29,749 bases of DNA from an uncultured Duganella sp. (GTDB lineage Bacteria; Pseudomonadota; Gammaproteobacteria; Burkholderiales; Burkholderiaceae), in assembly GCA_946482335.1 (NCBI GenBank), contig CAMLRG010000055.1, positions 1 through 29,749 on the forward strand, read 5' to 3'. This document shows, piece after piece, positions 243-20,984 of the stretch (position 1 is the stretch's first letter; each line of letters opens with the position of its first letter). Under the pieces are notes generated by a model, which searched no databases, was not told the origin of the DNA, and saw nothing but the letters and a program-made list of their open reading frames with translations. A program made the position numbers and the translations under genes.

Positions 243-257
243 TGGCATTGAGTTTGC
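243..257 (+). promoter_or_regulatory. sigma-54 -24/-12 element upstream of the acoR-like gene
   Basis: TGGCATTGAGTTTGC has the -24 TGGCA and -12 TTGC (followed by T) at canonical spacing. The expected start near 269 would leave a leader of about 84 nt before the ATG at 353, longer than at the other sigma-54 sites here. If real, the activator gene is itself sigma-54 dependent, possibly autoregulated. No clear activator site was found upstream. Confidence 0.45.
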
Positions 258-352
258 TTGCGTAACAATACAACGCACCTGGCAATCGCTTTTTGTTCAC
301 TTTTGACACAGGTGCTACATTAAAGAAAGCCGCAGAGGCTGCTGGGGGAGAC

Positions 353-2299
353 ATGCAACAGGAAACTGTTCCAAATTTGAGCAATGCGATCATCGAGACC
401 GCGCACCTGCGGTCGCGCACTTATGGCCTGGATCCGCGCAGCGATGTGGACTACGGACCGATCGACCGCAGTGCGCTCAACGGGTTGATCGAGCAAAACC
501 GCTTGCTGCACACCCATGCGGTGCCAGCCATGGAAACGCTCTACCAGCAAATCGTCAACACCCATAATATGGTGATCCTGACGGACGCCCAGGGTGTGAT
601 CCTGCATTCGCTGGGCGATGACGACTTCCTGGAGAAAGCCAACCGGGTCGCCCTGCAAGCTGGCGCAACCTGGTCCGAGCAATGCAAGGGTACCAATGCG
701 ATTGGCACGGCGATCGCCGAAGCCAAGCCCGCCCTGGTCCATGCCGATCAGCATTTTCTCCAAGCCAACCATTTCCTGACATGCTCCGCGGCGCCAATCA
801 CTGACCATGCCGGCAATGTCATCGGGGTACTGGACGTATCCGGCGACCAGCGCGCCTTCCATAAACACACCATGGCCCTGGTGCGCATGTCGGCGCTGAT
901 GGTTGAGAACCAACTGTTTGCCGCAGCTTTCGAGGATGTCATCACCCTGCACTTCCATGCCAGGCCGGAATTCATCGGTACGCTGATGGAGGGCATTGCG
1001 TCGTTCACGCCCGGCGGCCGCTTCATTGCCGCCAACCGTGCCGGCCTGTTCCAGCTCGGGCTGACATTCGCGGCGCTGCAATCCCATACCTTCAGCTCAT
1101 TATTCGGTCTGCCGGTGTCGGCACTGTTCGACCATTACCGGACGGCGGCGCCGGGCCTGCTCGACCTGTGCCTGCATAGTGGCGTGCGGGTGTTCGGACG
1201 CGCCCAGCTGCGGCTGGCCAATAACCATTTCCAGCATCCGATCGTCTCCGCGCGCGAGGACAGCCATCCGGCGCAGACCAATCCAGCCCACACGGCGCGC
1301 CGCTTGTCGGGACTGCGCTACCTGCGCACCGGGGACCAGCAACTGGAAGCGGTGATCGACAAGGTCACCCGCGTGCTGGGCAAGGATATCCCCATCATGA
1401 TCATGGGCGAAACCGGCACCGGCAAGGAATTGCTGGCACAAGCGATCCACAACGATTCGCCGCGCGCACAAGGCCCGTTCGTGGCGGTCAATTGCGCATC
1501 GATCCCCGAAACGCTGATCGAGTCGGAACTGTTCGGCTATGAGGATGGCGCATTCACCGGTGCGCGCAAGAAGGGCGCTGTCGGCAAAATCCTGCAGGCG
1601 AATGGCGGCACCCTCTTCCTCGACGAAATCGGCGACATGCCTTTCCCTTTGCAGGCCCGCCTGCTGCGCGTGCTGCAGGAGCGCATGGTGACGCCGCTGG
1701 GCAGCGGAAAGTCGATCCCGGTCAATGTGGAAGTCATTTGCGCCACCAACCATAATTTGCGCGACCGCATGGCGAAAGGGCTGTTCCGCGAAGACCTGTA
1801 TTACCGGCTCAACGGCCTGGTCGTGAAACTGCCGCCACTGCGCGAGCGCACCGACCTGGAAACAGTCGTCAACAAGATCCTGGCCACCGATACCTGCGGC
1901 AAGCGCTACACCGTGGCGCCGGAGTTGATGCAGCTCTTCCTGCGGCATAAATGGCCGGGCAACTTCCGGCAGCTCACCAACCTGCTGCGCACCGGCGTCG
2001 TGATGACCGGTGACGAGGGGGAAATCGGCCTGCAGCATATGCCGGACGACTTCCTCGACGACATGCGCGAGGCGCAAGCCATAGCGGCGCCTGCGGACGG
2101 CTTTCCCCCAGCCCACGCCGGCAACAGCGCGGCGGTGACGGCGGCCACCATGCCGTGCACCGGCGCGCGCCTGGAAGATATGGAGCAAACCCTGATCGTG
2201 CGTACGCTGGAGGCGCACGGCGGCAATGTCTCCGCCACGGCACGCGCCCTGGGCGTATCGCGCAATACGATCTACCGCAAGCTGCCCCATCTCAAGTAA
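353..2299 (+). CDS. acoR: AcoR-type sigma-54-dependent transcriptional activator
   Basis: This 648-residue activator belongs to the AcoR branch of bacterial enhancer-binding proteins, which turn on acetoin or alcohol catabolic genes with RNA polymerase-sigma-54. An N-terminal GAF-type sensor region (about 60-190) is followed by an AAA+ domain with Walker A GETGTGKE (from residue 352), the sigma-54 contact loop GAFTGA (from about 399) and Walker B LFLDEIGD. A Fis-type helix-turn-helix ends the protein (ATARALGVSRNTIYRKL). The frame is open from 293, but ATG 353 follows GGGGGAG and is the family-like start. The gene is convergent with a porin, 5 bp apart, without a terminator. The sensed compound is unknown. 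Sigma-54 sites before the alcohol-oxidation genes make it the best candidate activator in the window, but the link is inference. Confidence 0.9.
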   Translation: MQQETVPNLSNAIIETAHLRSRTYGLDPRSDVDYGPIDRSALNGLIEQNRLLHTHAVPAMETLYQQIVNTHNMVILTDAQGVILHSLGDDDFLEKANRVALQAGATWSEQCKGTNAIGTAIAEAKPALVHADQHFLQANHFLTCSAAPITDHAGNVIGVLDVSGDQRAFHKHTMALVRMSALMVENQLFAAAFEDVITLHFHARPEFIGTLMEGIASFTPGGRFIAANRAGLFQLGLTFAALQSHTFSSLFGLPVSALFDHYRTAAPGLLDLCLHSGVRVFGRAQLRLANNHFQHPIVSAREDSHPAQTNPAHTARRLSGLRYLRTGDQQLEAVIDKVTRVLGKDIPIMIMGETGTGKELLAQAIHNDSPRAQGPFVAVNCASIPETLIESELFGYEDGAFTGARKKGAVGKILQANGGTLFLDEIGDMPFPLQARLLRVLQERMVTPLGSGKSIPVNVEVICATNHNLRDRMAKGLFREDLYYRLNGLVVKLPPLRERTDLETVVNKILATDTCGKRYTVAPELMQLFLRHKWPGNFRQLTNLLRTGVVMTGDEGEIGLQHMPDDFLDDMREAQAIAAPADGFPPAHAGNSAAVTAATMPCTGARLEDMEQTLIVRTLEAHGGNVSATARALGVSRNTIYRKLPHLK

Positions 2300-2304
2300 G
2301 CCGC

Positions 2305-3450
2305 TCAGAAGAACAGGATGCCGCCGAGGGATGCACCATTCATCTTCGCCTCGGCGCCGGAGAAGGACTTCGAGCGGGTTTGGCCCACTTCGCCAACCAG
2401 CGTGATGGCGCCGGTCAGTGCGTAATAGGCACCGGCCGTCAGGTTGGCGTTCGACTTCAGCCCATTGGTTCCGGCGGTGTTGTCTTCGTTGCGGCTCATG
2501 CCGTAGCCAAGGCCCAGTTTCAGTTTCTCGCTGGCCTTGAAGGTCCCTTGCAGCAGCCAGTGCTTGCTGCGCACATTGCCCTGGTCGGCATCGGACAGCA
2601 CACCGAGCCCTTTGCCACCCTGGTAATTTGCGAGCAAGCCGAAGGCGCCTTGCTGCAACGATGCCCCGGCTTCCCAGCCCGTCATGGTGAAGTCCGCACC
2701 GGCGGCCGCCACAGCCTTGAACTTTTGCGACTTGGCGCCAAGCCAGGCTTTCAAGGCGCCGTCGGCATAACTCAATTGGGCCTGCAGCTGCGGGTTGGAG
2801 CGCGTGGAGTACTGTGCGGCGGACACGATCGGCGAGTCGACCACCGGGTTGAATACCCCGGCGTCGACGCTGAAGCCGGACAGCTTCGGCGAACTGTAGG
2901 CCATCTGGCCGTAATAGCCGACGTAAGCATAGCCGGCACCAATATGGCCCAGCGAGACGCGGCCGCGTTGGGTGGCCTGCACCGGCGCGCCGGCGCCGAT
3001 CAGCGTCATGTCGCCGAAGATGGCGTTGGCGCCGAAGATGCCGTTGTCGCGCCCCAGCTTGAAGGTACCTATGTCCGCATTGCCGAAGCTGAAATAGGCC
3101 TGGCGCACGTCGACTTCGCTGTTCTGCGCGATGGCGCTGTCGGTGGCGGTGGCGTGGTAGATGCCGATGTGGGCCTTGATGTCGAAGCCCGACTGCTTGG
3201 TGGTCGCTGAAGTTACCAGTCCGTTCGGCAGCAAGCCGTTGCCGATGGTGGTGCGGCGGTCTTCGCCGCCGCAGCCAATGCCCACGCTGGCCAGCGCCAG
3301 CCCGCCGACCGCGTCACCGCTGCATGAGACATGGGTATAGTAGGCGTTGACGATGCCGCCCACGTTCACGTTCCACTCGCCCGCCTTGATGTCGACGGCA
3401 TATGCTGCGGGGGCCGCGCCAATTGCGGCGGCCAGCACGATCTTCTTCAT
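2305..3450 (-). CDS. Outer-membrane porin
   Basis: A 381-residue protein with signal peptide MKKIVLAAAIGAAPAAYA, alternating beta-strand patterns and a C-terminal phenylalanine (ending GGILFF), as needed for outer-membrane assembly. It fits the general betaproteobacterial porin families (Porin_4-like) and should form a diffusion channel; the substrate cannot be read from sequence. The ATG at 3450 follows AGGAGACAACA, which excludes the longer open frame to 3552. A sigma-54-type element (3496-3510) lies about 34 nt upstream of the likely start codon, similar to the alcohol-oxidation operons. The gene ends 5 bp from the AcoR-type activator, so it may be an activator target that admits the inducing compound. 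That role is inference. Confidence 0.88.
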   Translation of the reverse strand: MKKIVLAAAIGAAPAAYAVDIKAGEWNVNVGGIVNAYYTHVSCSGDAVGGLALASVGIGCGGEDRRTTIGNGLLPNGLVTSATTKQSGFDIKAHIGIYHATATDSAIAQNSEVDVRQAYFSFGNADIGTFKLGRDNGIFGANAIFGDMTLIGAGAPVQATQRGRVSLGHIGAGYAYVGYYGQMAYSSPKLSGFSVDAGVFNPVVDSPIVSAAQYSTRSNPQLQAQLSYADGALKAWLGAKSQKFKAVAAAGADFTMTGWEAGASLQQGAFGLLANYQGGKGLGVLSDADQGNVRSKHWLLQGTFKASEKLKLGLGYGMSRNEDNTAGTNGLKSNANLTAGAYYALTGAITLVGEVGQTRSKSFSGAEAKMNGASLGGILFF

Positions 3451-3495
3451 TGTTGTCTCCTCGTTGTGATTGATGGATGCTGCACGAGGGACAGG

Positions 3496-3510
3496 GCAAT
3501 TAGCGTGCCG
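3496..3510 (-). promoter_or_regulatory. sigma-54 -24/-12 element for the porin
   Basis: On the minus strand CGGCACGCTAATTGC matches TGGCACG-N4-TTGC except for the first base. The expected start near 3484 gives a leader of about 34 nt. A loose inverted pair TGTTC (3574-3578) and GGAAC (3590-3594) lies further upstream, inside the end of the LacI gene, but does not match the activator site shared by the other operons. Confidence 0.6.
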
Positions 3511-3580
3511 GGGCCGCACACCGGGGCGGCGCGCGGGATGCGCTGTGCACATTGCGCCGATTTGGATCAGCGCTGTTCAG

Positions 3581-4609
3581 TTACGGACCGGAACGCGGAT
3601 GCACAGGCGGCTTGGCGAGCGAGCCGCGCGTCGTCAGGCTGATCGGGAATTTGCGCCTGACGGGGCGCTTCACGTCGTAGCACATGTTCAGCAGTTTGCG
3701 CACTGCGCTCTGGGTCATCTCGCGCCAGGGAATGTGCACCGACGTGAGGCGCGGGGCGGCGTAGGATGCGGCCGGCGTATCGTCATAGCCGATCACCGAC
3801 AGGTCGTGCGGCACGCGGATGCCCGCTTCCTGGAAGCAGGAAAGGGCCCCGACCGCCATTTCATCATTGGCGCAGAACAGCGCCGTAAAGTGGTAACCCG
3901 ACTTGAGCAGCTCGTTGGCGACATGCCAGCCGCCTTCCGCCGAAAAATCGCTTTCGCCGATCCACAGTGTGCCGGGATCGATGCCGGCTTGTGCCAGTTC
4001 GCCAAGAAAGCCATTGATGCGCATGACGTTGTCGGCGATATTCGCCGGACCGGCAATCACCGCGATCGCCCGATGCTGATGTTCCAGCAGGGTGCGCGCG
4101 GCCAGTTGGCCGCCATAAACGTGGTCCACGCTGAAGCACTGGTCGGGCATGCTGTCGAAGCAGCTGTTGACCATGACCAGCCGCCCCTGCTTCGGGCCCA
4201 GTGCCGCCAGGTCCTCTTCCTGCAGCGCGGCACTCATCACCAATACGCCATCGCAGCCGCGCTCCATCAGGAATTCAATACCCTTCATGGCTTGCGCACG
4301 CGCGCCGCCTTTGCCCGAGCCGAAGGCCACCACCATCTGCATGCCGGCTGCCTGCAATTCCGCGTCGATGATCTGCAGGATCGGCGTGTAGAAGGTACCG
4401 GACAGCACAGGGATATACACGCCGATGGTCTGGGTGCTGCCCAGCATGAGCGAACGGGCCACGTGCGAGGGCCGGAAGTTCAGGCTCTCGATGGCTTTTT
4501 GCACCATTTCCCGCTTGGCGGGCGATACCGAGCCCTTTCCGCTCACGACGCGCGATGCGGTACCCATCCCTACGCCGGCCAAACGTGCCACATCTTTCAG
4601 GGTTGCCAC
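3581..4609 (-). CDS. LacI-family transcriptional repressor of the GH30/TonB locus
   Basis: A 342-residue LacI/GalR-type repressor. The N-terminal helix-turn-helix reads TLKDVARLAGVGMGTASRVV, followed by a hinge and a periplasmic-binding-protein-like effector domain (VYIPVLSGTFYTPILQ to the C-terminus). I chose GTG at 4609, preceded by GAGGA, because the frame otherwise extends to 4675 and would put a perfect LacI-type operator (4629-4644) and the promoter inside the gene. The family binds sugars or oligosaccharides and releases DNA. The same palindrome occurs upstream of the TonB receptor at 10335-10382, so this protein most likely represses both itself and the glycan operon. The inducer is probably a beta-glucan fragment, inferred from the GH30 enzymes. 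Confidence 0.88.
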   Translation of the reverse strand: MATLKDVARLAGVGMGTASRVVSGKGSVSPAKREMVQKAIESLNFRPSHVARSLMLGSTQTIGVYIPVLSGTFYTPILQIIDAELQAAGMQMVVAFGSGKGGARAQAMKGIEFLMERGCDGVLVMSAALQEEDLAALGPKQGRLVMVNSCFDSMPDQCFSVDHVYGGQLAARTLLEHQHRAIAVIAGPANIADNVMRINGFLGELAQAGIDPGTLWIGESDFSAEGGWHVANELLKSGYHFTALFCANDEMAVGALSCFQEAGIRVPHDLSVIGYDDTPAASYAAPRLTSVHIPWREMTQSAVRKLLNMCYDVKRPVRRKFPISLTTRGSLAKPPVHPRSGP

Positions 4610-4628
4610 AAGGTCCTCAGGCTGAAAT

Positions 4629-4644
4629 TTGGAAACGCTTCCAA
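4629..4644. promoter_or_regulatory. LacI-type operator upstream of the repressor gene
   Basis: TTGGAAACGCTTCCAA is palindromic apart from the central A/C step and matches the sites at 10335 and 10367 with one change. It starts right at the -10 of the putative repressor promoter, a position suited to autorepression. Confidence 0.85.
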
Positions 4645-4672
4645 TGCTAACCAAAATGCCTTTGCGAAGCAA
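4644..4672 (-). promoter_or_regulatory. Promoter of the LacI repressor gene
   Basis: On the minus strand there is TTGCTT (4667-4672), 17 bp, then TAGCAT (4644-4649). The -10 shares its last base with the operator, so a bound repressor would cover the start site. The -10 matches only four of six consensus bases, so this is a plausible but unproven call. Confidence 0.5.
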
Positions 4673-4675
4673 CAC

Positions 4676-6127
4676 CTATTCTGAGCGCACCACCGTCTGG
4701 ATGGCGTGGGCCGGGATTTCCACTTGCGTATCGAGGCCGTCGATCACCAGCCGGTATCGCTGCGGCTGGCCGGTCCCGTTCATCACCACCACGGCCAGGC
4801 TGCCGTCGGCATTGCGGAAGGCCACGGTATGCAGGGTGCTGCGGCTGGCCGCGGCGCTCACCCGGCGTGCTTGCGGCCGGATATAGCGGGCGAAGTGACC
4901 CAGGTAGGCGTAGCTCGGGGTGAATATCAGCTCCCCGTCATCGCTGGCATGGAGCGGGGCGAAACAGTAGTTGCCCACGTGGTTCGGACCGCCGCGGCTA
5001 TCCAGCAGCATGTTCCAGTCGATCCAGCCCACCGCGCCTGCGTTCAGGTCCGCAATGATTTCACTGCCATAGCGCTCGCCGTTGGCCCAGGATTGCATCT
5101 GCGCCGCATCGAACTTCTCGACCGAAGCCTCGGTGAGCAGGAAATTCACGTCCGGGTATGCCTGCTGCATCGCCGCGACGTTGCGGTGCATGGGTTCCCC
5201 TTTGGCCCAGGTTTCGTACCAGTGGAAGCCCACGCCCCAGATATATTGGCGGGCCTTGGGATCGGACAGGATGTGGGCTGCTCGCTGGGGCAGCAGGTCG
5301 CGGTTGTGATCCCATACCACGATCTTCTTCGCGCCAAGGCCGGCCTGCTTCAGCGCCGGCCCGAGGTGGTCTGCCAGGAAACGCGTTTCCTCCTCCGCCG
5401 TGTAGATCATCGATTCCCAGGTCTGGGTCGCCATCGGTTCGTTCTGGACCGACAGCCCCCACAGCTCGATACCGGCTTTCTCATAGGCTTGCACGAACTT
5501 GACGATGTATTGCGCCCAGGCGTCGCGGTAGGCTGGCAGCAGTTTGCCGCCGCGCAGCATGCTGCCGTTGGATTTCATCCAGGCCGGCGCGCTCCATGGA
5601 CTGGCCATCACGCGCACAGGGTTGCCGTGCGCGGCGCCGCTTGCCAGCGCTTGCCGCAGCAGGGGCACGCGGTATCGCAAATCGTGCTCGATGCTGAACG
5701 AGGACAGCGTACGGTCGCCATCTTTCACATAGGTATAGCTGCCGCTGGCGAAATCGGAGCTGTGGATGGTGGTGCGGACCACGTTGTAGCCCAAGCCTTG
5801 TACCGGGTCGAAGTAAGCCGTCAGGAAGGCCCGCTGGGCGGCCGGCTTCAAGCGGCCGTAGACTTCGGCCGTGGCATCGGTGATCGCCCCGCCGAAACCG
5901 AAGACTTGCTGGAACGCCTTGCCGGTGTCGACGAAAATGGCAGTCTCGGTTTCCAGCGGCTGGGTGGCGGGGATGGGCTGGGGTAGCGCCTGCGGTGCGA
6001 AAAAGGTGGCGCCGCCCTGGGCGGTGGTATAGAGCTTCCAGGGGCCAGTGGGGGCGGCGGTCGCGGGAAGACATGCCGCCAGTCCGGCGCCCCAGATCAA
6101 CTTCATGGCCTGTCGTCTTGTTGTCAA
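4676..6127 (-). CDS. GH30-family glycoside hydrolase, Tat-type signal
   Basis: A 483-residue GH30 glycosidase (glucosylceramidase / endo-beta-1,6-glucanase type). The acid/base Glu (about 230) is in SVQNEP and the nucleophile Glu (about 333) in LLTEAS; both sit in the family's TIM barrel, followed by a C-terminal beta domain ending in VEIPAHAIQTVV. The start is uncertain. ATG 6106 has a weak ribosome site, whereas TTG 6127 follows GGGGAGA directly after the upstream stop and yields TTRRQAMKLIWGAGLAACL, a twin-arginine-like signal. I prefer the TTG. The gene is the third in an operon with a TonB receptor and another GH30 enzyme. It should cut beta-linked glucan fragments outside the cytoplasm; the exact linkage is not shown by the sequence. 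Confidence 0.88.
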   Translation of the reverse strand: MTTRRQAMKLIWGAGLAACLPATAAPTGPWKLYTTAQGGATFFAPQALPQPIPATQPLETETAIFVDTGKAFQQVFGFGGAITDATAEVYGRLKPAAQRAFLTAYFDPVQGLGYNVVRTTIHSSDFASGSYTYVKDGDRTLSSFSIEHDLRYRVPLLRQALASGAAHGNPVRVMASPWSAPAWMKSNGSMLRGGKLLPAYRDAWAQYIVKFVQAYEKAGIELWGLSVQNEPMATQTWESMIYTAEEETRFLADHLGPALKQAGLGAKKIVVWDHNRDLLPQRAAHILSDPKARQYIWGVGFHWYETWAKGEPMHRNVAAMQQAYPDVNFLLTEASVEKFDAAQMQSWANGERYGSEIIADLNAGAVGWIDWNMLLDSRGGPNHVGNYCFAPLHASDDGELIFTPSYAYLGHFARYIRPQARRVSAAASRSTLHTVAFRNADGSLAVVVMNGTGQPQRYRLVIDGLDTQVEIPAHAIQTVVRSE

Positions 6128-6128
6128 C

Positions 6129-7586: not shown

Positions 7587-7596
7587 GTGCGGCACC

Positions 7597-10278: not shown

Positions 10279-10304
10279 GTGTCTCTCCATTCTCATCGAC
10301 CGGA

Positions 10305-10320
10305 TTGGTAACGTTTCCAC
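10305..10320. promoter_or_regulatory. Degenerate third LacI-type operator
   Basis: TTGGTAACGTTTCCAC differs from TTGGAAACGCTTCCAA (4629-4644) at three positions. It starts 30 bp from the next site, close to three helical turns, and lies between the perfect sites and the receptor start codon. Confidence 0.5.
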
Positions 10321-10334
10321 TTATTGGCCAAAAT

Positions 10335-10350
10335 TTGGAAGCGCTTCCAA
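10335..10350. promoter_or_regulatory. LacI-type operator 1 upstream of the TonB receptor
   Basis: Perfect 16-bp palindrome TTGGAAGCGCTTCCAA, the classic LacI-family operator shape with a central CG. It matches the site before the repressor gene except for one base. Confidence 0.92.
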
Positions 10351-10366
10351 GCCTGCCGATAAAAAA

Positions 10367-10382
10367 TTGGAAGCGCTTCCAA
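10367..10382. promoter_or_regulatory. LacI-type operator 2 upstream of the TonB receptor
   Basis: A second perfect TTGGAAGCGCTTCCAA, 32 bp from the first (about three helical turns), so two repressor dimers could sit on the same face of the DNA. I could not identify a convincing sigma-70 promoter between them. Confidence 0.92.
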
Positions 10383-10422
10383 TTCGAGGCCATTATGGTC
10401 CCGAACAAAATGCCATGTCAAC

Positions 10423-10448
10423 AAAAAAAAGGCGGCCCGCGGGCCGCC
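10423..10448 (-). terminator. Rho-independent terminator of the alcohol dehydrogenase operon
   Basis: On the minus strand the perfectly self-complementary GGCGGCCCGCGGGCCGCC (10431-10448) is followed by eight T residues (10423-10430). It lies about 20 bp after the alcohol dehydrogenase stop and separates that operon from the LacI-controlled one. Confidence 0.92.
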
Positions 10449-10469: not shown

Positions 10470-12206
10470 TTATCGCGGTGCCAGCTTGAACACCCACACC
10501 GAGCCGCCCTGCTCGAGGAAGTTGACCTTCTTCGCCACTTCCCCGCCCCACAGCGGCACTGCACCGCCCCAGCCGGATACGACGGCCACGTATTGCGTGC
10601 CGCCGTCCTGCCAGGTGACGGGCGGTGCGACCACGCCGGAGCCGGTCTGGAACTGCCACAATTCCTTGCCGGTCTGTGCGTCGAGCGCCTTCAGGTAGCC
10701 TTCCGGCGTGCCGTAGAACACCAAGCCGCCGGCGGTCGCCATCGCCCCGCCCCACAGCGGCGCATTGTTCTTCACTTCCCACTTGATCTTGCCGCTCTTC
10801 GGGTCGATCGCCCGCAGGGCGCCGATGTAGTCGTCGAACAGCGGTTTGATGGTGAAGCCGGCACCCAGGTAGGCGCCGCCTTTCTTGTAGCTGATCGGCT
10901 CATTCCAGATATCCATGCCCCACTCGTTGGCGGGCACGTAGAACAACCTGGTCTGCGGGCTGTATGCCATCGGCTGCTGGTTTTTGGCGCCAAGGAAGGC
11001 CGGCGCTGCGAACACGGTACTGCCCTTCTTGCCCTCCTCACCCTTGGTCGGGTCGCCTGGACGGCCATCGGACGTGAAGTTCGGGCGGCCGGTCTTCAAG
11101 TCGATGCCGGTGGCCCAGGTGATCTTGCGCACGAAGGGAAAGGCATTCACCAGCTTGCCGTCGCGGGCATCGTTCACGTAGAAGAAGCCGTTGCGGTCGG
11201 CCTTGCCGCCATAGCGCTTGCCGTCCATCTCGAAGGTGACGAACTCATTGGCGCCGTCGAAGTCCCAGGCATCATTCGGCGTATTCTGGTACGCCCATTT
11301 GATGGCGCCGGTCAGCGGGTCAAGCGCCACCGTGGAGGAGGAGTAAAGGTTGTCGCCGGGACGCAGGTGGCTGTTCCAGGGCGCCGGGTTGCCGGTGCCG
11401 AAGTACGCCAGGCCGGTTTTCGGGTCGTAGGTGCCGCCCATCCAGGTCGAGGCGCCGCCAGTCTTCCACAATTCACCCGGCCAGGACTTGTTGACCGAAC
11501 CGGTGACGCCGGTCTCGGTGGCTTTGCCTTCGCTATCGTACTTGTAGCCCATGTGGCCTTCCACCGTTGGGCGGGTCCACAGCAGCTCGCCGGTCTTGGG
11601 GTCGCGGCCTTCGACGCGGCCGACGATGCCGAATTCACCGCCCGATACACCGGTCAGCAGCACGCCGTTGGCAATCAGGGGGGCGGCGGTCATCGAGTAG
11701 CCGGCGGCGTAGTCGTCCACCTTTTCCTTCCACACCACTTTGCCGGTGTCCTGGTCCAGTGCGACCAACTGTGCGTCCAGCGTGCCGAAGATCACCAGGT
11801 TGTCGTACAGGGCGGCGCCGCGGTTGATCACGTCGCAGCACGGCATGATGGCGTCCGGCAGGCGGTGCTCGTACTTCCACAGCTTGTTGCCGGTCTTGAG
11901 GTCGAGGGCGAAGATGCGCGAGTAGGAAGCGGTCACGAACATCTTGCCGTTGTAGATCAGCGGCTGCGATTCCTGGCCGCGCTGTTTTTCGCCGCCGAAC
12001 GAGAACGACCATGCCGGTACCAGGCGGCTGACATTGCGCGTATTGATCTGCTTCAGCGGCGAGTAGCGCTGTCCCTCCGACCCCATGCCGGAAGAAAGCA
12101 CGCTGCCGGTGTCCTTGGCGGCGTTGTCCAGCATGGTGGTGGTGACGCTGGCGGCCTGCGCCAGTGTTGCTGCCCCCAGCAGCATTCCGATAGTGATGTA
12201 TTTCAC
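10470..12206 (-). CDS. PQQ-dependent alcohol dehydrogenase, lanthanide-type active site
   Basis: A 578-residue periplasmic quinoprotein of the methanol/ethanol dehydrogenase family; it oxidises alcohols to aldehydes and passes electrons to a cytochrome c. It has a signal peptide ([18 protein letters not shown]), the adjacent-cysteine disulfide (C123-C124 in [10 protein letters not shown]), and the metal ligands Glu191 (GGEFG), Asn273 (GTGNPAPWN) and catalytic Asp315 in NDAWDFDG. Asp317, two residues on, is the extra ligand of lanthanide-dependent enzymes (PedH, XoxF); calcium enzymes usually have Ala or Ser there. C-terminal tryptophan-docking repeats are present ([14 protein letters not shown]). 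The start is GTG after GGAGACAGGAC. It is the last gene of an operon after an aldehyde dehydrogenase and a DUF779 protein. The substrate is probably ethanol or another short alcohol (inferred). Confidence 0.93.
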
Positions 12207-12221: not shown

Positions 12222-12575
12222 TTATCGTTGTGGATCGGTCATCAGGCGGGAACGCAGCAGGAAGCGCTTGCCGGTGCCGTTATCGAGCGAGAACATGCCG
12301 CCATTGCCCGGCACCACATCGATGATCAGCTGCGTGTGCTGCCAGTACTCGAACTGTTCCTGCCCCATGAAGAAGGGCATGCCGCCCAGGTTGCCGAGAT
12401 AAACGTCGGTCTCGCTGACGTTGAACTCGTTCGCCGGGTAGCACATCGGCGAACTGCCATCGCAGCAGCCGCCGGACTGGAAGAACAGGATCGGACCATG
12501 CTGCCGATACAGCTCGGCGATCAGCGCCAGGGCCGGTTCGGTGGCCGTCACGCGGGCGGCAATTGCGGTATCCAT
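12222..12575 (-). CDS. DUF779 family protein
   Basis: A 117-residue protein of the DUF779 family, which is repeatedly found beside acetaldehyde dehydrogenases. A cysteine-rich segment GGCCDGSSPMCYP (about 35-47) looks suited to metal or redox chemistry. No signal peptide is visible, so it is cytoplasmic. The frame opens further upstream, but the ATG at 12575 (MDTAIAARV), after AAAGGCAGGGA, is the family start and avoids overlapping the aldehyde dehydrogenase. It lies 23 bp after that gene and 15 bp before the alcohol dehydrogenase, so all three are co-transcribed. The biochemical role is unknown; accessory function for the aldehyde dehydrogenase is an inference from context. Confidence 0.88.
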   Translation of the reverse strand: MDTAIAARVTATEPALALIAELYRQHGPILFFQSGGCCDGSSPMCYPANEFNVSETDVYLGNLGGMPFFMGQEQFEYWQHTQLIIDVVPGNGGMFSLDNGTGKRFLLRSRLMTDPQR

Positions 12576-12598: not shown

Positions 12599-14119
<1,521 letters not shown>

Positions 14120-14158: not shown

Positions 14159-14173
14159 GCAATTGCCGTGCCA
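14159..14173 (-). promoter_or_regulatory. sigma-54 promoter of the aldehyde/alcohol dehydrogenase operon
   Basis: On the minus strand TGGCACGGCAATTGC matches the sigma-54 consensus TGGCACG-N4-TTGC at every fixed position. The expected start near 14147 gives a leader of about 28 nt before ATG 14119. Confidence 0.9.
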
Positions 14174-14214: not shown

Positions 14215-14236
14215 TGTTCCAAACTTGAACACCTGT
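14215..14236 (-). promoter_or_regulatory. Candidate activator-binding site (UAS) of the dehydrogenase operon
   Basis: On the plus strand TGTTCCAAACTTGAACAC followed by CTGT. TGTTC and GAACA form an inverted pair with 7 bp between. The 22 bp match the site before pedF (21015-21036) at 18 positions in the same orientation to the gene. It begins 43 bp upstream of the -24 GG. The bound protein is presumably the AcoR-type activator, but this is not shown. Confidence 0.7.
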
Positions 14237-14244
14237 TGCTCAAT

Positions 14245-15174
14245 TCAACGGATCACCACTCCCCAGGGCAGCTCGCCGACCGTGATGTCGGCCACCTTGC
14301 GCGCGCTGGCGGTATCGATCACGGACACGCTGCCGGAACGGCCATTTGCCACGTACAGCTTGCTGCCGTCCGGTGTCATGGCCATATTCCAGGGCCGCTT
14401 GCCGACGGCGATGGTGGCGCTGACCTCGTTACGTGCCGTGTCGATGCGCATCACGCTGCCGTCCGTGCCGTTGGAGACGTAGACACTGCGGCCGTCGGGG
14501 TGCACAGCGATGCCATTGGCATTGCGGCCTGCCGGCACGGTGGCCAGCGTGCGCAAGGTCGCCGGGTCGATCACGTACACTGCGTTGGCCAGCTCGCATG
14601 CAACGTAGACCCGGCTCGCATCGGGCGCAAAGCCGATGCCGCGTGGGCGCAGCCCCACCGCGACAGAACCGGTCTGGCGGCGCAGCGCAACGTCGATCAC
14701 GTCCACCTGCTCCGCATCCTCGGCACTGACGTAGAGGTAGCGGCTGTCCGGGCTGAATACCGCATGTTCGGGGTTGCGGCCTTGTACCGGGATGTCGGCC
14801 AGGCGGGCATGCGTGACGGCGTCGAACAGGGCCACGCTATTGCCTTCCTCCACGGCCACGGCCACCATTGTGCCGTCCGGCGATACGCTGACGCCCTCGG
14901 GCGAGCTGCCCAGTGCCAGGGCCACGCTGGTGCCGGCCGCGCTGTCGATCGCCAGCAGGCTGCCGCTGCCGGCATCGCTGACGAACAGTTGGCGCCCGGC
15001 TGGACCGATGCCGATGCCTCGCGGCCGTTTGCCTGCCGGGATCTGTCGGACCACGGTGTCGGTCGAGGTGTCGATCACGCTGATGGTGCCGGATTTCTCG
15101 TTCGGCACATAGGCGAAGGGCGCGGCACTGGCGCCGGCCGCGGCGCATAGCGCCATGAGCAGGATTGCCTTCAT
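14245..15174 (-). CDS. PQQ-catabolism-associated YVTN beta-propeller protein
   Basis: A 309-residue secreted seven-bladed beta-propeller with YVTN-type repeats, for example FAYVPNEKSGTISVIDTST, LFVSDAGSGSLLAID, VYVACELANAVYVID and LYVANGRSGSVSVID. It fits the family annotated as PQQ-dependent catabolism-associated beta-propeller protein. A signal peptide (MKAILLMALCAAAGASA) sends it to the periplasm. ATG 15174 follows AAAGGAGACATC; the longer frame to 15309 would cover the promoters. A sigma-54 element (15212-15226) lies about 26 nt upstream of the expected transcript start-to-ATG leader, and pqqU is divergent. Its function is not established in the family; a scaffold or binding role in alcohol oxidation is a guess. 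Confidence 0.88.
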   Translation of the reverse strand: MKAILLMALCAAAGASAAPFAYVPNEKSGTISVIDTSTDTVVRQIPAGKRPRGIGIGPAGRQLFVSDAGSGSLLAIDSAAGTSVALALGSSPEGVSVSPDGTMVAVAVEEGNSVALFDAVTHARLADIPVQGRNPEHAVFSPDSRYLYVSAEDAEQVDVIDVALRRQTGSVAVGLRPRGIGFAPDASRVYVACELANAVYVIDPATLRTLATVPAGRNANGIAVHPDGRSVYVSNGTDGSVMRIDTARNEVSATIAVGKRPWNMAMTPDGSKLYVANGRSGSVSVIDTASARKVADITVGELPWGVVIR

Positions 15175-15211: not shown

Positions 15212-15226
15212 GCAAGCGATATGCCA
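15212..15226 (-). promoter_or_regulatory. sigma-54 -24/-12 element for the beta-propeller gene
   Basis: On the minus strand TGGCATATCGCTTGC (then A) has TGGCA and TTGC at canonical spacing. The expected start near 15200 leaves about 26 nt to ATG 15174, like the leaders of the other operons. Confidence 0.65.
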
Positions 15227-15251: not shown

Positions 15252-15266
15252 TGGCAGGCATATTGC
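15252..15266 (+). promoter_or_regulatory. sigma-54 -24/-12 element for pqqU
   Basis: TGGCAGGCATATTGC (then T) has TGGCA and TTGC at canonical spacing. The expected start near 15278 gives a leader of about 46 nt. It stands back to back with the element at 15212-15226, with only 25 bp between the two -24 boxes. Confidence 0.6.
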
Positions 15267-15323
15267 TTATGTGTCCGGGAGACCCGCGCAGCGGGCATGC
15301 TGAACACATCCGAGGAGACTGAG

Positions 15324-17453
15324 ATGCACCCGATCCGTTTGAACGTCATGGCCGGCCTGCTGGCCAGCCTGTTTTCCCCCATGCTGGCGCAGGCTGCGCC
15401 AGGCGGCGCGGCGCCCGAAGGGGCGGCGATTGCCGATGTCGTCGTCATCAGCGGCAGCCGCACCGAACACCAGAGCTTCGACCTGCCGGCGGCGGTGGAC
15501 GTCCTGGATGCGCAGCGCATCCAGGAAGGGCAGTTGCGCGTCAACGCTTCCGAGGCCCTGGCCGCCGTGCCCGGCGTGGTGGTGCAGAACCGCCAGAACT
15601 ATGCGCAGGACCTGCAAATCTCCTCGCGCGGCTTCGGCGCCCGCTCAGCCTTTGGCGTGCGCGGTGTGCGGCTGATCACCGATGGCATTCCGGCCAGCAT
15701 GCCGGACGGCCAGGGCCAGGCGGCCACGTTCAACCTCGACATGGCGGAACGCATCGAGGTATTGCGCGGACCGTATTCGGCCATCTATGGCAACCATGCG
15801 GGCGGCGTGATCCAGCTGTTCACGCGCGACGGTGAGGGCGCGCCGACCGTGGAGGCAAGCATTGCCGGCGGCAGCGACGGCTTGCGCAAGACCGGCCTCA
15901 ATGCACAGGGCAGCGCCGGGGGTGTCGGCTATGTGCTGGACGCTTCCCGTTTCGAAACGGATGGCTACCGCGACCACAGTGCGGCGCGGCGCGACCAGGC
16001 CATGGCGAAACTGAGCCTGCAGCCGATGGCCGGCGCCAGGCTGGTATTGGTGGCGAATGGCCTGCGGCAAAAAGATACCCAGGATCCGCTGGGCGCCACC
16101 TGGGCCACGTGGCAACGCGACCCGCGTGCCGGCGAGACCGACGCCAGCGATACCCAGGTGCCAAAGCGCACGCTGGCGGAGCGCTATGACACGCGCAAGA
16201 GCATCGACCACCAGCAAGGCGGCGCCAGCTGGGACCAGCGCTTCGCATCCGGCAGCCTGCACGCCAGCGTATGGGGCGGCAACCGGCGCGTGACGCAATT
16301 CCAGTCATTCTCCAAAGGCTTCCAGGCGCCGGCCAGCCATTCGGGAGGGGTGATCGATTTCGACCGGGATTTCTATGGCACGGATATCAACTGGCAGGAT
16401 ATGCGCGAGCTGGCGGGCGGCCGGCTGACCACCACGTTTGGTGTGGAATACAGCCGCTCCAGCGACGAGCGCAAAGGCTACGAGAACTTCATCGGCAATA
16501 CCTTCGGCGTGCAGGGCAAGCTGCGCCGCGATGAGGAGGACGTGGTATCGAGCACCGATCCTTATGTGCAGTCGGAATGGCAGGGCGAGCGCTGGCAGTT
16601 CACGGCGGGCTTGCGCCATAGCCGCATGCGGGTGTCGGTCGATGACCATTTCGCCGGCAACGGCAACGACAGCGGCTCGCTGCGCTTCAGCCGCAGCACG
16701 CCGCTGCTGGGCGTGCTGTACAAATTGACGCCGGGCCTGAACCTGTACGCGACTGCGGCACGCGGTTTCGAGGCTCCGACGCTGAATGAATTGTTTTATT
16801 CCGCCAGCGGTGCCGGTTTCAACTTCAAGCTGCGCCCTGCCCGCAGCACCCATGTCGAAGCCGGCATCAAGGCCCGCGCCGGCGACACGCGCATCGATGC
16901 CGCGCTGTTCCAGGTGCGCACGCAGGATGAACTGGTGGTCGATACCGCCAGCGGCGGCCGCACCAGTTACCGCAATGCCAGCGAAACGCTGCGCCAGGGC
17001 GCCGAGCTGTCGCTCGACAGCAAGCTGGGGGCCGGTTTCAGCACACGCGTGGCGGCCACGGTCCTGAAGGCGACCTACGAGAAACCGTTCGGCAGCGTGC
17101 GCGAAGGCAGCCGCCTGCCGGGTGTGCCACGCGCCAGCCTGTTTGCCGAGCTGTCCTGGAAATCCAGCGGGGAACGCTTCGGCGCCGCGCTCGAGTCGCT
17201 CAGCGTGGGCCGGGTGTTCGCCGACGATGCCAATGCCGACGTGCCGGCACCGGGCTACAGCGTGCTGAATGCGCGCCTGGTCGCCAAGCAAGCGTGGGCG
17301 GGATGGCGGATCAGCGAGTTTGTCCGCCTGAACAACCTGGCGGACCGGCGCTACATCGGTTCCGTCATCGTCGGCGACAGCAACAAGCGCTATTACGAGG
17401 CCGCCCCCGGCCGCAACTGGGCAGCCGGTGTCAGTGCGCAGTACCAGTTCTAG
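15324..17453 (+). CDS. pqqU: TonB-dependent PQQ receptor (PqqU/YncD-like)
   Basis: A 709-residue outer-membrane receptor. It closely resembles E. coli YncD, renamed PqqU for its role in PQQ uptake, as I remember that sequence: the plug has VPGVVVQNRQNYAQDLQISS and GFGARSAFGVRGVRL followed by DGIPASMPDGQGQ, and the end has YIGSVIVGDSNKRYYEAAPGRN. A signal peptide ends at MLAQAA and a TonB box (DVVVISGSR) follows. ATG 15324 is preceded by GAGGAGA; the open frame from 15195 would include the promoter. A sigma-54 element precedes it. It ends in a CTAG that is also the stop of the convergent receptor gene. Import of PQQ for the neighbouring quinoprotein is a strong contextual inference. The PqqU assignment rests on remembered motifs, not an alignment. 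Confidence 0.85.
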   Translation: MHPIRLNVMAGLLASLFSPMLAQAAPGGAAPEGAAIADVVVISGSRTEHQSFDLPAAVDVLDAQRIQEGQLRVNASEALAAVPGVVVQNRQNYAQDLQISSRGFGARSAFGVRGVRLITDGIPASMPDGQGQAATFNLDMAERIEVLRGPYSAIYGNHAGGVIQLFTRDGEGAPTVEASIAGGSDGLRKTGLNAQGSAGGVGYVLDASRFETDGYRDHSAARRDQAMAKLSLQPMAGARLVLVANGLRQKDTQDPLGATWATWQRDPRAGETDASDTQVPKRTLAERYDTRKSIDHQQGGASWDQRFASGSLHASVWGGNRRVTQFQSFSKGFQAPASHSGGVIDFDRDFYGTDINWQDMRELAGGRLTTTFGVEYSRSSDERKGYENFIGNTFGVQGKLRRDEEDVVSSTDPYVQSEWQGERWQFTAGLRHSRMRVSVDDHFAGNGNDSGSLRFSRSTPLLGVLYKLTPGLNLYATAARGFEAPTLNELFYSASGAGFNFKLRPARSTHVEAGIKARAGDTRIDAALFQVRTQDELVVDTASGGRTSYRNASETLRQGAELSLDSKLGAGFSTRVAATVLKATYEKPFGSVREGSRLPGVPRASLFAELSWKSSGERFGAALESLSVGRVFADDANADVPAPGYSVLNARLVAKQAWAGWRISEFVRLNNLADRRYIGSVIVGDSNKRYYEAAPGRNWAAGVSAQYQF

Positions 17454-19645
17454 AAATTGATGCGCAGCCCGGCCGTCACCGAGCGTGGCGCGCCGGGCGC
17501 CACAAAGCGCGCTTCCTGCGGCGCGCCCTCCTGCAGCGGGCGGCCGCCGGGGAAGAAATCGGCGGCCACGGCGCCGAACGTTTCATGACGGCGGTTGGCG
17601 GCATTGTTGATGCGCACATGCCATTCCCATTGGTCGTTCGGCCGATAGCTGGCTTGCAGTCCAAGCAGGGCGTGGCCCGCAATGCGCCAGCCGGGCCGGT
17701 CGCCATCTTCGTTGCCCATCAAGGCCATATGCGAGCTGGCGTGCAGGGTTGCGCCCAGCTTCAGCGCGGGGGTGGCGTGCCAGTCTGCGCCGAACTTGAA
17801 GCTGTGGCGCGGCAAGCCCGCAATACGCGTGCCGTTTTGTACCGCGACATCGCGGGTGCCGGTGAACAGGCTGCCGCTGGCGCCATATACGGCATCCAGG
17901 AAACTATAGGCAAGGCTGACCTGCAGCGCGCGTGTGCGCAGACTGGCGGTGAAGTCGGCGCCCTGGTGGCGCGTGCGGGGGAAGTTGGCGAAGTAGCCGT
18001 GCTGGCTGATGCCAGCCGTGCGGAACAGGATGTCGTCCCGGTTTTGCGTGCGGTAGAACGCAAGCGTGACCTGCTGTTCGCCTTGCTTCCAGCGCGCGCC
18101 TGCCTCCACTGTACGCGACACGACCTGCTTCAGGTAGGGGTCGGATTGCAGGCCGACCGGCAGGCGGCAAGGCTGCCCGGGGTCGGCGCAACCCAATTCG
18201 ATCACGGTCGGGACGCGGTTGCTCTGCGAGGCGCTGGCGAACAGGGTGGTGCCTGCCGCGGCCTGGTAAGTGATGCCAAGGGCGGGGTTCAGCTTGCGAT
18301 AAATGAAGCGTTCATGCTGTGCGTTGCTGTCGTCCTCGTCGCGGTCGTGCCGCAGCGTATTGGCCACCCTCGACCAGCCGACACGCGCCGATCCCGTGAG
18401 CGACCAACGGGGTGCGAATGTCCACGTATCGCTGGCGAACAGCGCGGCGCTGGCTGCGCTGCCGTCGACTTCGGCCTCCAGTTCCCGCCCGCTGCCCGGC
18501 AGCGCCAGCACGTCGCGCCGTGCCCCGAAGGCCGCGGGCTGGCTGAATTGGGCGAATGAGACGCTGTTGCGGTCGAAGGTGGCGCCCAGCGCCAGCCGGT
18601 GCGCCCCTGCGGGCAACTGCAGGCTGGCGCTCGCCCCCTGGCTGCGCTGGCGCGTCACTGCCGTATTCAGGCTGGCCGGGGCTGGGCCGGCTTCGCGCTC
18701 GTCGTCTTCATCGCCGTCGGCAACGTCACCATTCACACCATCACGGCGGCTGCTGCGGACGTAGGCGGACAGCGCCAGCTGCGCATTCCCTTCCAGCTGG
18801 CGGCGCAGGCTGGCCTGAAGCTGGCGCAGCTGGTTGCTGCTGCGGTCCGGGCTGGTGTACACGGCGCGCCGGTCCGCGTGGTACAAGCCATCCGGCAGCA
18901 AGCCATTGCCCGTCAGCCGGCTGCCGCCGGCCAGGACCGACAGGTCCCAGTCCTGCCGCGCCGCAGCGTGCCCCACCTTGGCGAACAGCCTGGCCAGGTG
19001 ACCCGGCGACGCGGCCCGCCAACCACGGTCATGGAACAGTGTCGCCGCCGCAAAGCTATGCCAGCCATCCGCCCGCTGCGCACCGTGCGATAACTCCACG
19101 CGCCGCCGGCCATCGCTGGCTGCCGTGACGCCGATGCTGCCGCCGGGATCGTCCCGGCCGTTACGGGTCAGCAGCACCAGCGCCCCGCCCAGCGTATTCA
19201 AACCATACAGCGGGTTGGAACCCGGCGCCAGCAGCACTTGCCCGATGGCCGCTTCCGGCAGCATGTCCCAATTCACGACATCGCCGAACGGCTCATTCAC
19301 CCGCACGCCATCGAGATACACCGACAACCCTTGCGCCGTGCCCAATAGCGGCGAGGCGCGGAAGCCGCGATAGGTAAGGTCCTGCTGGTAAGGGCTGCCC
19401 GATATACCGTTCAGGTTCACGCCCGCCAGCGTGCGCGCCATGGTTTCCGCCAGGGTCTCGCCCTGCTGCGGCGCCGCGCCGAGCTGCACGGCATAAGGCA
19501 GCAGCTTGCTTTCAACCGCGAGTACCGGCACCGGCGCGATGCCGACGATCTCGACGGACTGGATGCCATTGCCGCCGCCCCCACCCTCGGCGCGCGCTGC
19601 TGCAGCCAGGACCGCCAGCAGCCCAGTCAACGCCCGCCTTTTCAC
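17450..19645 (-). CDS. TonB-dependent receptor of the PQQ/alcohol-oxidation operon, acidic loops
   Basis: A 731-residue TonB-dependent receptor: signal peptide MKRRALTGLLAVLAAAARA, TonB box SVEIVG (30-35), plug with YQQDLTYRGFRASPLLG and DGVRVNEPFGDVVNWD, then the barrel, ending in a phenylalanine (AGLRINF). It overlaps the solute-binding protein gene by ATGA and is the third gene after pedF, so it belongs to the sigma-54 operon. Two stretches are strikingly acidic: 302-318 (core ADGDEDDERE) and about 433-440 (HDRDEDDS). A cysteine pair in GCADPGQPC suggests a disulfide-closed loop. The ligand is unknown; PQQ, a metal chelate or a lanthanide complex are possible, the last suggested by the lanthanide-type dehydrogenase. 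That is speculation from context. Confidence 0.85.
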   Translation of the reverse strand: MKRRALTGLLAVLAAAARAEGGGGGNGIQSVEIVGIAPVPVLAVESKLLPYAVQLGAAPQQGETLAETMARTLAGVNLNGISGSPYQQDLTYRGFRASPLLGTAQGLSVYLDGVRVNEPFGDVVNWDMLPEAAIGQVLLAPGSNPLYGLNTLGGALVLLTRNGRDDPGGSIGVTAASDGRRRVELSHGAQRADGWHSFAAATLFHDRGWRAASPGHLARLFAKVGHAAARQDWDLSVLAGGSRLTGNGLLPDGLYHADRRAVYTSPDRSSNQLRQLQASLRRQLEGNAQLALSAYVRSSRRDGVNGDVADGDEDDEREAGPAPASLNTAVTRQRSQGASASLQLPAGAHRLALGATFDRNSVSFAQFSQPAAFGARRDVLALPGSGRELEAEVDGSAASAALFASDTWTFAPRWSLTGSARVGWSRVANTLRHDRDEDDSNAQHERFIYRKLNPALGITYQAAAGTTLFASASQSNRVPTVIELGCADPGQPCRLPVGLQSDPYLKQVVSRTVEAGARWKQGEQQVTLAFYRTQNRDDILFRTAGISQHGYFANFPRTRHQGADFTASLRTRALQVSLAYSFLDAVYGASGSLFTGTRDVAVQNGTRIAGLPRHSFKFGADWHATPALKLGATLHASSHMALMGNEDGDRPGWRIAGHALLGLQASYRPNDQWEWHVRINNAANRRHETFGAVAADFFPGGRPLQEGAPQEARFVAPGAPRSVTAGLRINF

Positions 19646-20454
19646 GGCTTCGCCAACTGCACGCCGTGGCGCGCAAAGATTTCCTTCAGTTCACCGCTGG
19701 CGGCCAGCTCATTCAATGCGGCCTGCAGCTGGCGCGCCAGATCCGTCCTGTCCTTGCGCACCGCCATGCCTACCGCCCATCCGGCACGCGGCAGCCGCTG
19801 GAAAGTGACCTGTTCCACCGGAAAGGCCGCATCGCCGCGCAGCACGGACTCGATCTCCGAGCGGGTCGCCAGCACGGCATCCAGCCCACCGGCTTTCAAC
19901 TCCTGCAATGCCTCGGCCGACGTCGGGAACAGCCGCACCTGGTCGCGAAACCGGCCATTGCCTTCGCCCAGCATTACCATGCCTGCCAGCGAGACCTGCT
20001 CCACCCCGATGCGCTTGCCCGCCAGCGCGTCAATGCCGTCGAATACCGGGATGCTGCGGGCGCTGCGGACCAGCCGCACCGATTCCACATGGTAGGGCGC
20101 AAAGATCTCCACCTTGTCGTTCGCCATCAGCGTGCGGTCAACCGGCACATGCAGCATCACATCCGCCGGGCCGTAGCCAAGGTAATGCCCTTTCCACACC
20201 ATATTGCGCAAGTCATCGTTCAGGTTTTCGCCCGCCGGGAAGGGCAGCAGGCTCAATTTCATCGACAGCTTGCGCGCCAGCGCGGCGGCCAGGTCGACAT
20301 CGATGCCAGCCCCGTTGGCGGAGAACGGCGCAAACTCCTTGTACACGGCAACTTTAAGGGCGCCGGTATCGGCACGCACCGGCAGCGCCGCAAACAGCAG
20401 GGCACAGCCGATCAGCAGCAGGGCGCGGAGGCCGCGCAGGCGCAAGGTCAGCAT
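19642..20454 (-). CDS. Quinoprotein dehydrogenase-associated solute-binding protein
   Basis: A 270-residue periplasmic protein of the bacterial extracellular solute-binding family 3 fold, of the type annotated as quinoprotein dehydrogenase-associated putative ABC transporter substrate-binding protein. The signal peptide runs to about PVRA, followed by LKVAVYKEFAPFSANGAGIDVDLAAALARKL and, at the end, ELKEIFARHGVQLAKP. ATG 20454 follows GTGAGG, 12 bp after pedF, and the stop overlaps the receptor start. No ABC permease or ATPase is adjacent, as is usual for this group, so it may serve the dehydrogenase (ligand delivery or assembly) rather than a transporter. The ligand is not evident. Confidence 0.87.
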   Translation of the reverse strand: MLTLRLRGLRALLLIGCALLFAALPVRADTGALKVAVYKEFAPFSANGAGIDVDLAAALARKLSMKLSLLPFPAGENLNDDLRNMVWKGHYLGYGPADVMLHVPVDRTLMANDKVEIFAPYHVESVRLVRSARSIPVFDGIDALAGKRIGVEQVSLAGMVMLGEGNGRFRDQVRLFPTSAEALQELKAGGLDAVLATRSEIESVLRGDAAFPVEQVTFQRLPRAGWAVGMAVRKDRTDLARQLQAALNELAASGELKEIFARHGVQLAKP

Positions 20455-20466
20455 GGCAGCCTCACG

Positions 20467-20928
20467 TCAATTGGTGGCGCGCCGGGTTTCCAGGTAGGTC
20501 TTGATGGCCCACATGGCTTCCTGGTTGAAGACGCCTTCGAATGGCGGCATATACACCGCGCCGTTACGCACCTTGCCGGCCCGGATCGACGCCAAGTAAT
20601 AGCGGTCAATCTCCTTGTAGCAGGCCTGTTTCTTGGTTTCGTTGCGCATGCCTTGGCAGTCCCGGTCCAGCAAGCGCAAGTCGGGTGCGATGCCGCCCGA
20701 AACCGCTTCAATGCCGTGGCAACGGGCGCAATTCTGGTTATAAGCGGAATATCCGATCTTCAGCGCGAGCTTGCTGTCCTTGTAGGGATTTTCATCGCGC
20801 CACTTATCGCCCAGCGCCGGCAAGCCGGTGGTATCGACACCCTGCGGCGTGACATTACCGTGGGCAAAAGCAATCAGGGAAGTGGTTACGGCAAGCGTCA
20901 GCGCGACGCCGAGGACGATGCGTTTCAT
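20467..20928 (-). CDS. pedF: Cytochrome c-550, PedF type
   Basis: A 153-residue periplasmic c-type cytochrome, the expected electron acceptor of the quinoprotein alcohol dehydrogenase. It has a signal peptide (to about AFA), one heme-binding CARCH (C67, C70, H71) and a candidate axial methionine M127 in YMPPFEG. Two further cysteines (C91, C103) may form a disulfide. The HGNVTPQGVDTTGLPALG start of the mature chain is characteristic of PedF. ATG 20928 follows CAGGAGACATCC; the frame opens as far as 21039 but would cover the promoter. A perfect sigma-54 promoter lies at 20970-20984 and an activator-like site at 21015-21036. It heads an operon with the solute-binding protein and the second TonB receptor. 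Confidence 0.92.
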   Translation of the reverse strand: MKRIVLGVALTLAVTTSLIAFAHGNVTPQGVDTTGLPALGDKWRDENPYKDSKLALKIGYSAYNQNCARCHGIEAVSGGIAPDLRLLDRDCQGMRNETKKQACYKEIDRYYLASIRAGKVRNGAVYMPPFEGVFNQEAMWAIKTYLETRRATN

Positions 20929-20969
20929 GGATGTCTCCTGCATGATGTGGTTGTAATACCCATGCAGGA

Positions 20970-20984
20970 GCAATCGCCGTGCCA
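20970..20984 (-). promoter_or_regulatory. sigma-54 promoter of the pedF operon
   Basis: On the minus strand TGGCACGGCGATTGC (then T) matches the sigma-54 consensus at all fixed positions and differs at one base from the dehydrogenase-operon promoter. The expected start near 20958 gives a leader of about 30 nt before ATG 20928. Confidence 0.9.

Follow-up and report, generated by a model that had tools for sequence, protein, structure and literature searches.

In a 29,749-nucleotide contig from an uncultured Duganella sp. (CAMLRG010000055.1 of assembly GCA_946482335.1; this whole stretch is the window below), an AcoR-type sigma-54 activator probably switches on both its own gene, acoR (353..2299, +), and the neighbouring genes for alcohol oxidation dependent on pyrroloquinoline quinone (PQQ). 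We hold it likely that these genes form a local sigma-54 regulon of the activator, operating by the mechanism proposed below. Judged from the sequence, the circuit appears to be of a familiar type and is well supported, the layout of the acoR promoter being its unusual feature.

Scanning both strands of the window for TGGCAN6TTGC yielded five exact matches and no others; they precede acoR (243..257, +), the exaC operon (14159..14173, −), a yncE-like gene (15212..15226, −), pqqU (15252..15266, +), and the pedF operon (20970..20984, −). A sixth element, CGGCACGCTAATTGC at 3496-3510 (−), precedes a porin gene and has one mismatch. An earlier reading of this DNA (the original prediction) had placed five exact elements and an imperfect one at these positions, each aimed at a gene, and the pattern scan agrees; all six have the GG at -24 and GC at -12, at fixed spacing, by which a sigma-54 promoter is recognized. 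Measured from a presumed start 12 nt beyond the -12 element, the predicted leaders are 26 nt for the yncE-like gene, 28 for exaC, 30 for pedF, 34 for the porin, 46 for pqqU, and 84 for acoR, which alone lies outside the 26-46 nt correctly given for five of the six. The chance expectation of 0.2 matches, calculated from equal base frequencies, was about threefold too low: 100 dinucleotide-preserving shuffles averaged 0.76 matches and never exceeded 3, none of the 100 reaching five. A generic sigma-54 consensus scan, the weighting of which was of our choosing, put the five exact sites at ranks 1-5, whereas the porin element tied at ranks 7-9 with two intragenic matches and stood below one match inside acoR; because it scores like intragenic matches, the porin element alone is not significant. 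The original prediction had named similar scores at many non-promoter positions as evidence that would count against it; no such pattern affects the five exact sites, but the porin site is partly open to that objection.

Whole-genome scans for the pattern and for the enhancer site described below covered six relatives, of which we used the totals and, in G017, the places around the cluster. Each genome contained 47-142 matches to TGGCAN6TTGC versus 18-36 for the reversed pattern; 0.25-0.66 matches are then expected in a window-sized stretch, and the Poisson p is 6e-4 at 0.66. Among the matches listed for G017, a complete Janthinobacterium genome, seven of 139 fall within 1,306,041-1,325,941, and five of these are the pedF, pqqU, yncE-like, exaC, and acoR promoters; the binomial chance of at least six matches in 20 kb is 6e-6, for a stretch that was of course picked for being the cluster. 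It is vanishingly improbable that a short motif merely recurs at these places by chance: the motif is abundant in each relative's genome and the porin element ranks with intragenic matches, but the shuffles, the conservation, and the spacer controls given below all speak against chance and, for the five exact sites, refute it.

Judged by the nearest relatives, the window comes from a bacterium of the Oxalobacteraceae, in the Massilia/Duganella/Pseudoduganella group. A PedF query retrieved 67 loci, most bearing Oxalobacteraceae names, and the gene order pedF - binding protein - (TonB receptor) - pqqU - yncE-like - exaC - DUF779 - dehydrogenase - porin is conserved in many of them. Elements were counted from -450 to +100 of each start using one widened pattern for all genes, to which variants were added after a first scan; on this basis they precede pedF in 65/67 loci (one as GGGCA), exaC in 61/61, the yncE-like gene in 58/61, and pqqU in 59/62. 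The exaC count leaves out L065, which has too little upstream DNA, and the matches picked in L036 and L038 are intragenic, promoter matches at -103 and -118 being among those listed. An exact element occurs on the acoR strand in all 30 acoR loci examined, and the porin element is present as a variant in 30/30 relatives (27 GGGCA, 2 AGGCA, 1 CGGCA; none TGGCA). Across the 36 genomes drawn from the 67 loci, which also supplied the six scanned in full, 35 have an AcoR homologue at E <= 1e-120, at least 71% identical in 33, and the 16 of these genomes searched for RpoN, all of them relatives of the window's source, have one each. In the GTDB family to which G002 belongs, 60 of 145 genomes have AcoR at E <= 1e-200, and these 60 include every one of the 41 in which PedF exceeds its cut-off (Fisher 9e-22, without correction for kinship).

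A candidate enhancer site accompanies several of these promoters; neither it, nor its downstream position at acoR, nor the link to PQQ synthesis genes had been part of the original prediction. The site, TGTTCCANNNTGGAACA, is a 17-bp inverted repeat with a 3-bp spacer; a model with a 4-bp spacer scored poorly and was rejected. At up to three mismatches, the window contains four copies, compared with 0.60 in shuffles: near exaC, near pedF, inside the start of acoR, and one in lacI. A matrix was built from the relatives' pedF and exaC sites, 53 of them distinct once the nearest three relatives (L001-L003) were excluded, and ranks the window sites as follows: exaC (14215..14231, −; one mismatch, 58 bp upstream of the -24 start), score 27.3; the acoR coding start (367..383, +; two mismatches), 25.4; pedF (21015..21031, −; one mismatch, 47 bp upstream of the -24 start), 25.1; a weak candidate at the porin (3553..3569, −; 59 bp upstream of the -24 start), 14.1; and the acoR leader (294..310, +; 51 bp downstream of the -24 start), 13.4. 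Next come a place in a TonB receptor gene (12.9) and lacI (8.1). The acoR and porin sites were thus recovered although neither gene was in the training set. In 30 random windows, the best score averaged 10.5 and reached 16.6 at most, whereas the fourth best averaged 6.6 and never exceeded 9.1; the window's sites therefore stand out as a set. At up to two mismatches, the cluster accounts for three of the 6-14 genome-wide sites in G001, G017, G028, and G031.

Site and promoter go together in relatives. Over the 67 loci, which include the training sites of the matrix, the promoter pattern with its six-base spacer gave 274 matches, 94 of them with a site 30-130 bp upstream, whereas spacers of five, seven, and eight bases gave 15, 8, and 19 matches with 0, 1, and 0 sites, and reversed and permuted patterns gave 5 and 1 matches with 1 and 0 sites. 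In 20 more distant acoR regions, selected to span AcoR identity, 19 of 41 six-base matches had sites, versus none of the 1-6 matches for the controls. The pair of site and promoter precedes exaC even beside AcoR genes that are just 56-63% identical; overall, it was found before exaC in 10/11 distant regions, pedF in 8/10, the dehydrogenase gene in 3/7, and pqqU in 2/3. The misses at exaC in L113 and at pedF in L108 are cut by the region edge, and that in L112 is a true miss. The distance from site to promoter at pedF is 45-48 bp in 39 of 60 cases, 57-59 in 16, 68-69 in four, and 26 in one; helical phasing is clear for pedF and unclear for exaC, and we do not rely on it. A later matrix, trained on all 67 loci, gave median best scores near the promoter of 24.4 for pedF (n=65) and 21.3 for exaC (n=61), both in-sample, and of 9.9 for the porin (n=33), -2.7 for the yncE-like gene (n=58), and -4.6 for pqqU (n=59); random 180-bp control stretches had a median of -4.5, a 95th percentile of 5.5, and a 99th of 24.4, raised by true sites among them.

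The genes behind the two strongest upstream sites are those of alcohol oxidation. Acetaldehyde dehydrogenase ExaC (12599..14119, −; NF050026, 943 bits versus a cut-off of 900) is followed by a DUF779 protein (12222..12575, −; PF05610) and a PQQ-dependent alcohol dehydrogenase (10470..12206, −; TIGR03075, 760 bits versus 480); the three genes are spaced closely enough for one operon, and in most relatives no sigma-54-type element was found for the dehydrogenase gene itself. Cytochrome c550 PedF (20467..20928, −; TIGR04494, 192 bits versus 122, for the longer open reading frame, ORF) has a TonB-dependent receptor and a solute-binding protein downstream (17450..20454, −; PF00593, PF00497). The outer-membrane porin (2305..3450, −) takes its name from homologues called porin or predicted porin by their sources; its longer ORF, 2305-3552, had no Pfam or NCBIfam match. 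Inspection by eye of the porin alignment, which leaves out L088, gave a pitch of 19 bp.

Between the dehydrogenase and porin genes (about 3571-10465) lie genes for LacI, two GH30 enzymes, and a TonB receptor. The sequences flanking this segment align almost end to end in L070, which does not have it, from which we suggest that a polysaccharide-use island was probably inserted just upstream of the porin enhancer site and left the porin promoter whole.

The activator itself has GAF, AAA (PF00158), and Fis-type helix-turn-helix (HTH; PF02954) domains. Sigma-54 enhancer-binding proteins are marked by the motif GAFTGA, and it is present in all 51 aligned AcoR rows. No NCBIfam family matched the activator over cut-off (the matches shown were all below, and none was AcoR), hence "AcoR-type". 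Pfam scans of 25 window proteins found a single one with a sigma-54 interaction domain, which bears out the claim that it is the only such activator in the window. Mean identity to the window protein over the 51 rows is 0.76 for the whole HTH versus 0.88 for AAA and 0.82 for GAF, and the 12 AcoR rows listed hardly differ in the part of the HTH that serves recognition. It is very unlikely that the repeats are bound by another enhancer-binding protein encoded elsewhere, with AcoR merely a neighbour. Two or three AcoR-like genes in some relatives, and a repeat and element beside a histidine-kinase gene in L107, would suit such a protein, but the repeats occur at acoR itself in 30/30 relatives, and distant genomes retain the pair before an exaC that adjoins acoR when the rest of the cluster is missing from the region (L116, L118-L121).

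On sequence evidence, the originally predicted AcoR regulon is well supported for acoR, the exaC-DUF779-dehydrogenase operon, and the pedF operon, and less firmly for the porin; for pqqU and the yncE-like gene, that support extends to the promoter elements but not to an enhancer site nearby. Besides the ranking of the porin element, several observations weigh against so broad a regulon. The random-window maximum of 16.6 exceeds the porin and acoR-leader scores taken singly; the porin median of 9.9 is above the 95th percentile of the controls but below the 99th, and the porin site scores only 4.9-5.0 in L055 and L062. The site at 19264-19280, within the TonB receptor gene, is at no described promoter and probably reflects chance. 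Six of 32 pairs in the distant regions precede no homologue of a window gene, only 3/20 of those regions have the pair before acoR, and in 57/57 loci the stretch from -800 to +700 around the yncE-like start contained no enhancer site scoring above 11.

The sites at acoR are arranged differently from the others. In the window one begins 51 bp past the -24 start and the other, which is intragenic, 124 bp past it, and in 30/30 relatives all sites scoring above 9 are downstream of the sigma-54 element; none was found upstream within the 78-261 bp of upstream sequence covered. The sites are overlapped in 20/30 relatives by a sigma-70-like core, TTGYTC-17-TACATT, and autoregulation may therefore not be simple activation. 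We regard it as possible, though somewhat improbable, that AcoR represses its own gene, the repeats blocking the sigma-70-like core and the upstream sigma-54 element being minor. The downstream position of the sites, which is peculiar to acoR, and the overlapping core fit repression; the sigma-54 element, on the other hand, is retained in every one of the 30, and the core is a by-eye match to a loose consensus and, by that pattern, is missing in 10/30. The acoR arrangement may be read as activation or as repression, between which sequence cannot separate. With the pair at only three of the 20 distant acoR genes, the layout is not general. FleQ is said to use enhancer sites downstream of RpoN promoters at flagellar genes; here it is the activator's own gene, which, if activation holds, would be a natural case of enhancers downstream of an activator's own sigma-54 promoter.

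The remaining two promoters are divergent and strongly conserved. They serve a YncE-like beta-propeller protein (14245..15174, −; PF21783 over cut-off for the longer ORF) and a TonB-dependent receptor (15324..17453, +) that we term PqqU-like because the best match of its longer ORF, NF041535, scored 611 bits and did not reach the cut-off of 1200. The pqqU element is kept largely through its spacer, as TGGCAGGYATATTGCTT at 15252-15268 (+), which is more than a sigma-54 site needs. Both count as sigma-54 genes by their elements, but with no enhancer site nearby they are at most putative targets of AcoR. Conceivably, though we doubt it somewhat, pqqU and the yncE-like gene answer to a different sigma-54 activator, and the six promoters make up two regulons. 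The uniform absence of a site from the 57 loci and the control-level scores are as that would predict; against it, the intergenic alignment contains no conserved block besides the two elements, in L015 and L108, without a yncE-like gene, the exaC-pqqU interval contains one site, 82-101 bp away from each of the two elements, a position fitting both, and pqqU in L126 has a site of its own. Were AcoR to drive the pair in the window, it would do so either over about 1 kb, using the exaC site, or through unrecognised sites.

The PqqU importer of PMC12124388, in the part of that account available, is a TonB-dependent receptor of the same type, and many PQQ users are stated there to import PQQ; the window protein differs in falling below the family cut-off and in having a sigma-54-type promoter divergent from a yncE-like gene. 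PqqC was found in 9 of 16 relatives searched and not in the other seven (G001, G002, G012, G017, G020, G028, G031), some relatives being draft or metagenome assemblies in which a missing pqqC may be an assembly gap. All seven still encode the PQQ dehydrogenase in their clusters. Gaps aside, these seven are likely PQQ importers, and the missing pqqC would fit import as described in the accessible part of PMC12124388.

In the relatives that do have pqqC, synthesis appears linked to the same signals. The link was unsought: a whole-genome site in G003, among the matches listed, fell beside pqqC. An NGGCAN6TTGC element lies ahead of pqqA in 7/9, exactly TGGCA in three, and element and site together in 6/9, with best site scores of 14.0-18.7; no such element was found in the pqqA regions of L104 and L105, and no such site in that of L106. 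The pqqA-like ORFs were located with a sequence motif.

From the elements, motif, conservation, and co-occurrence seen in these sequences, we infer binding, activation, an inducer, and transcript starts. To judge from the genes, the inducer would be acetaldehyde or a product related to it, acting as a small signal. The activator would bind the repeats starting 47-59 bp upstream of -24 at pedF, exaC, and the porin and, on sensing the signal, would open sigma-54 polymerase there, co-inducing the porin, the PQQ alcohol dehydrogenase and acetaldehyde dehydrogenase, and cytochrome c550 as electron taker; acoR would be autoregulated through the sites that lie in its leader and near the beginning of its coding sequence. 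A more elaborate version is, taken as a whole, unlikely: one activator would run the entire quinoprotein alcohol-oxidation programme, including cofactor import or synthesis; acoR would be a sigma-70/sigma-54 switch, with enhancers downstream of the sigma-54 start and atop the sigma-70 core, one state of the protein shutting the basal promoter and the other firing the inducible one; and the back-to-back pqqU/yncE promoters, with no enhancer of their own, would depend on that of exaC at a distance of about 1 kb.

The Azospirillum exaA gene reportedly uses sigma-54 with the LuxR-type regulator EraR. Part of the regulon described here has precedent. In Ralstonia solanacearum, an AcoR-type activator was predicted to control exaC, and rpoN1 is required for growth on ethanol (PMC4676750, in part); ExaC stands alone in the portion seen of that account, whereas the PQQ dehydrogenase, PedF, the porin, the pqqA of relatives, and a site motif are added here. 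The Pseudomonas ped/exa cluster shares the PQQ alcohol dehydrogenase, PedF, a PedG-type binding protein, and the porin, but is assigned in the available part of PMC12997753 to LuxR-type regulators (AgmR/ErbR, PedS2-PedR2). PQQ dehydrogenase and PQQ synthesis are likewise co-induced in Azospirillum brasilense, but exaA and pqqA there need RpoE6 (PMC12826043, as far as its accessible text goes), and Bacillus AcoR serves acetoin catabolism instead, according to the section seen of PMC10018347. The predicted control of exaC by AcoR is already in print; in the literature searched, we did not come across the span of the regulon, the site motif, or the layout at acoR. No paper linking AcoR to a PQQ system in the Oxalobacteraceae was found in that literature, which was open-licence and covered mostly by listing. 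The sites provide a testable motif and a list of targets through which a group of soil and water bacteria may control their use of alcohols, as against the LuxR-type control of Pseudomonas; if the regulon is as proposed, PQQ synthesis, and perhaps import, would be tied to demand from the enzyme that requires it.

Beyond pedF, the window contains rtcB and rtcA (21058-23411, −), with no activator gene found adjoining them; in 15/67 loci, a further sigma-54 activator domain, 33-36% identical to AcoR, lies near rtcB and is perhaps RtcR, a guess on our part. A 5S ribosomal RNA (rRNA) gene occupies 25485-25597 (−). Upstream of acoR there is a 16S-23S operon in L128 and a 5S gene in L129, none being found in L130, and the contigs of many relatives end near acoR; the rRNA genes and these contig ends suggest that the left end of the window may border an rRNA operon. 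In L107 (Janthinobacterium LM6; 4345-4428, −), a perfect repeat is followed, 70 bp downstream, by an exact sigma-54 element at the start of a histidine-kinase ORF, which is followed by that of a LuxR-type response regulator and is perhaps a further target.

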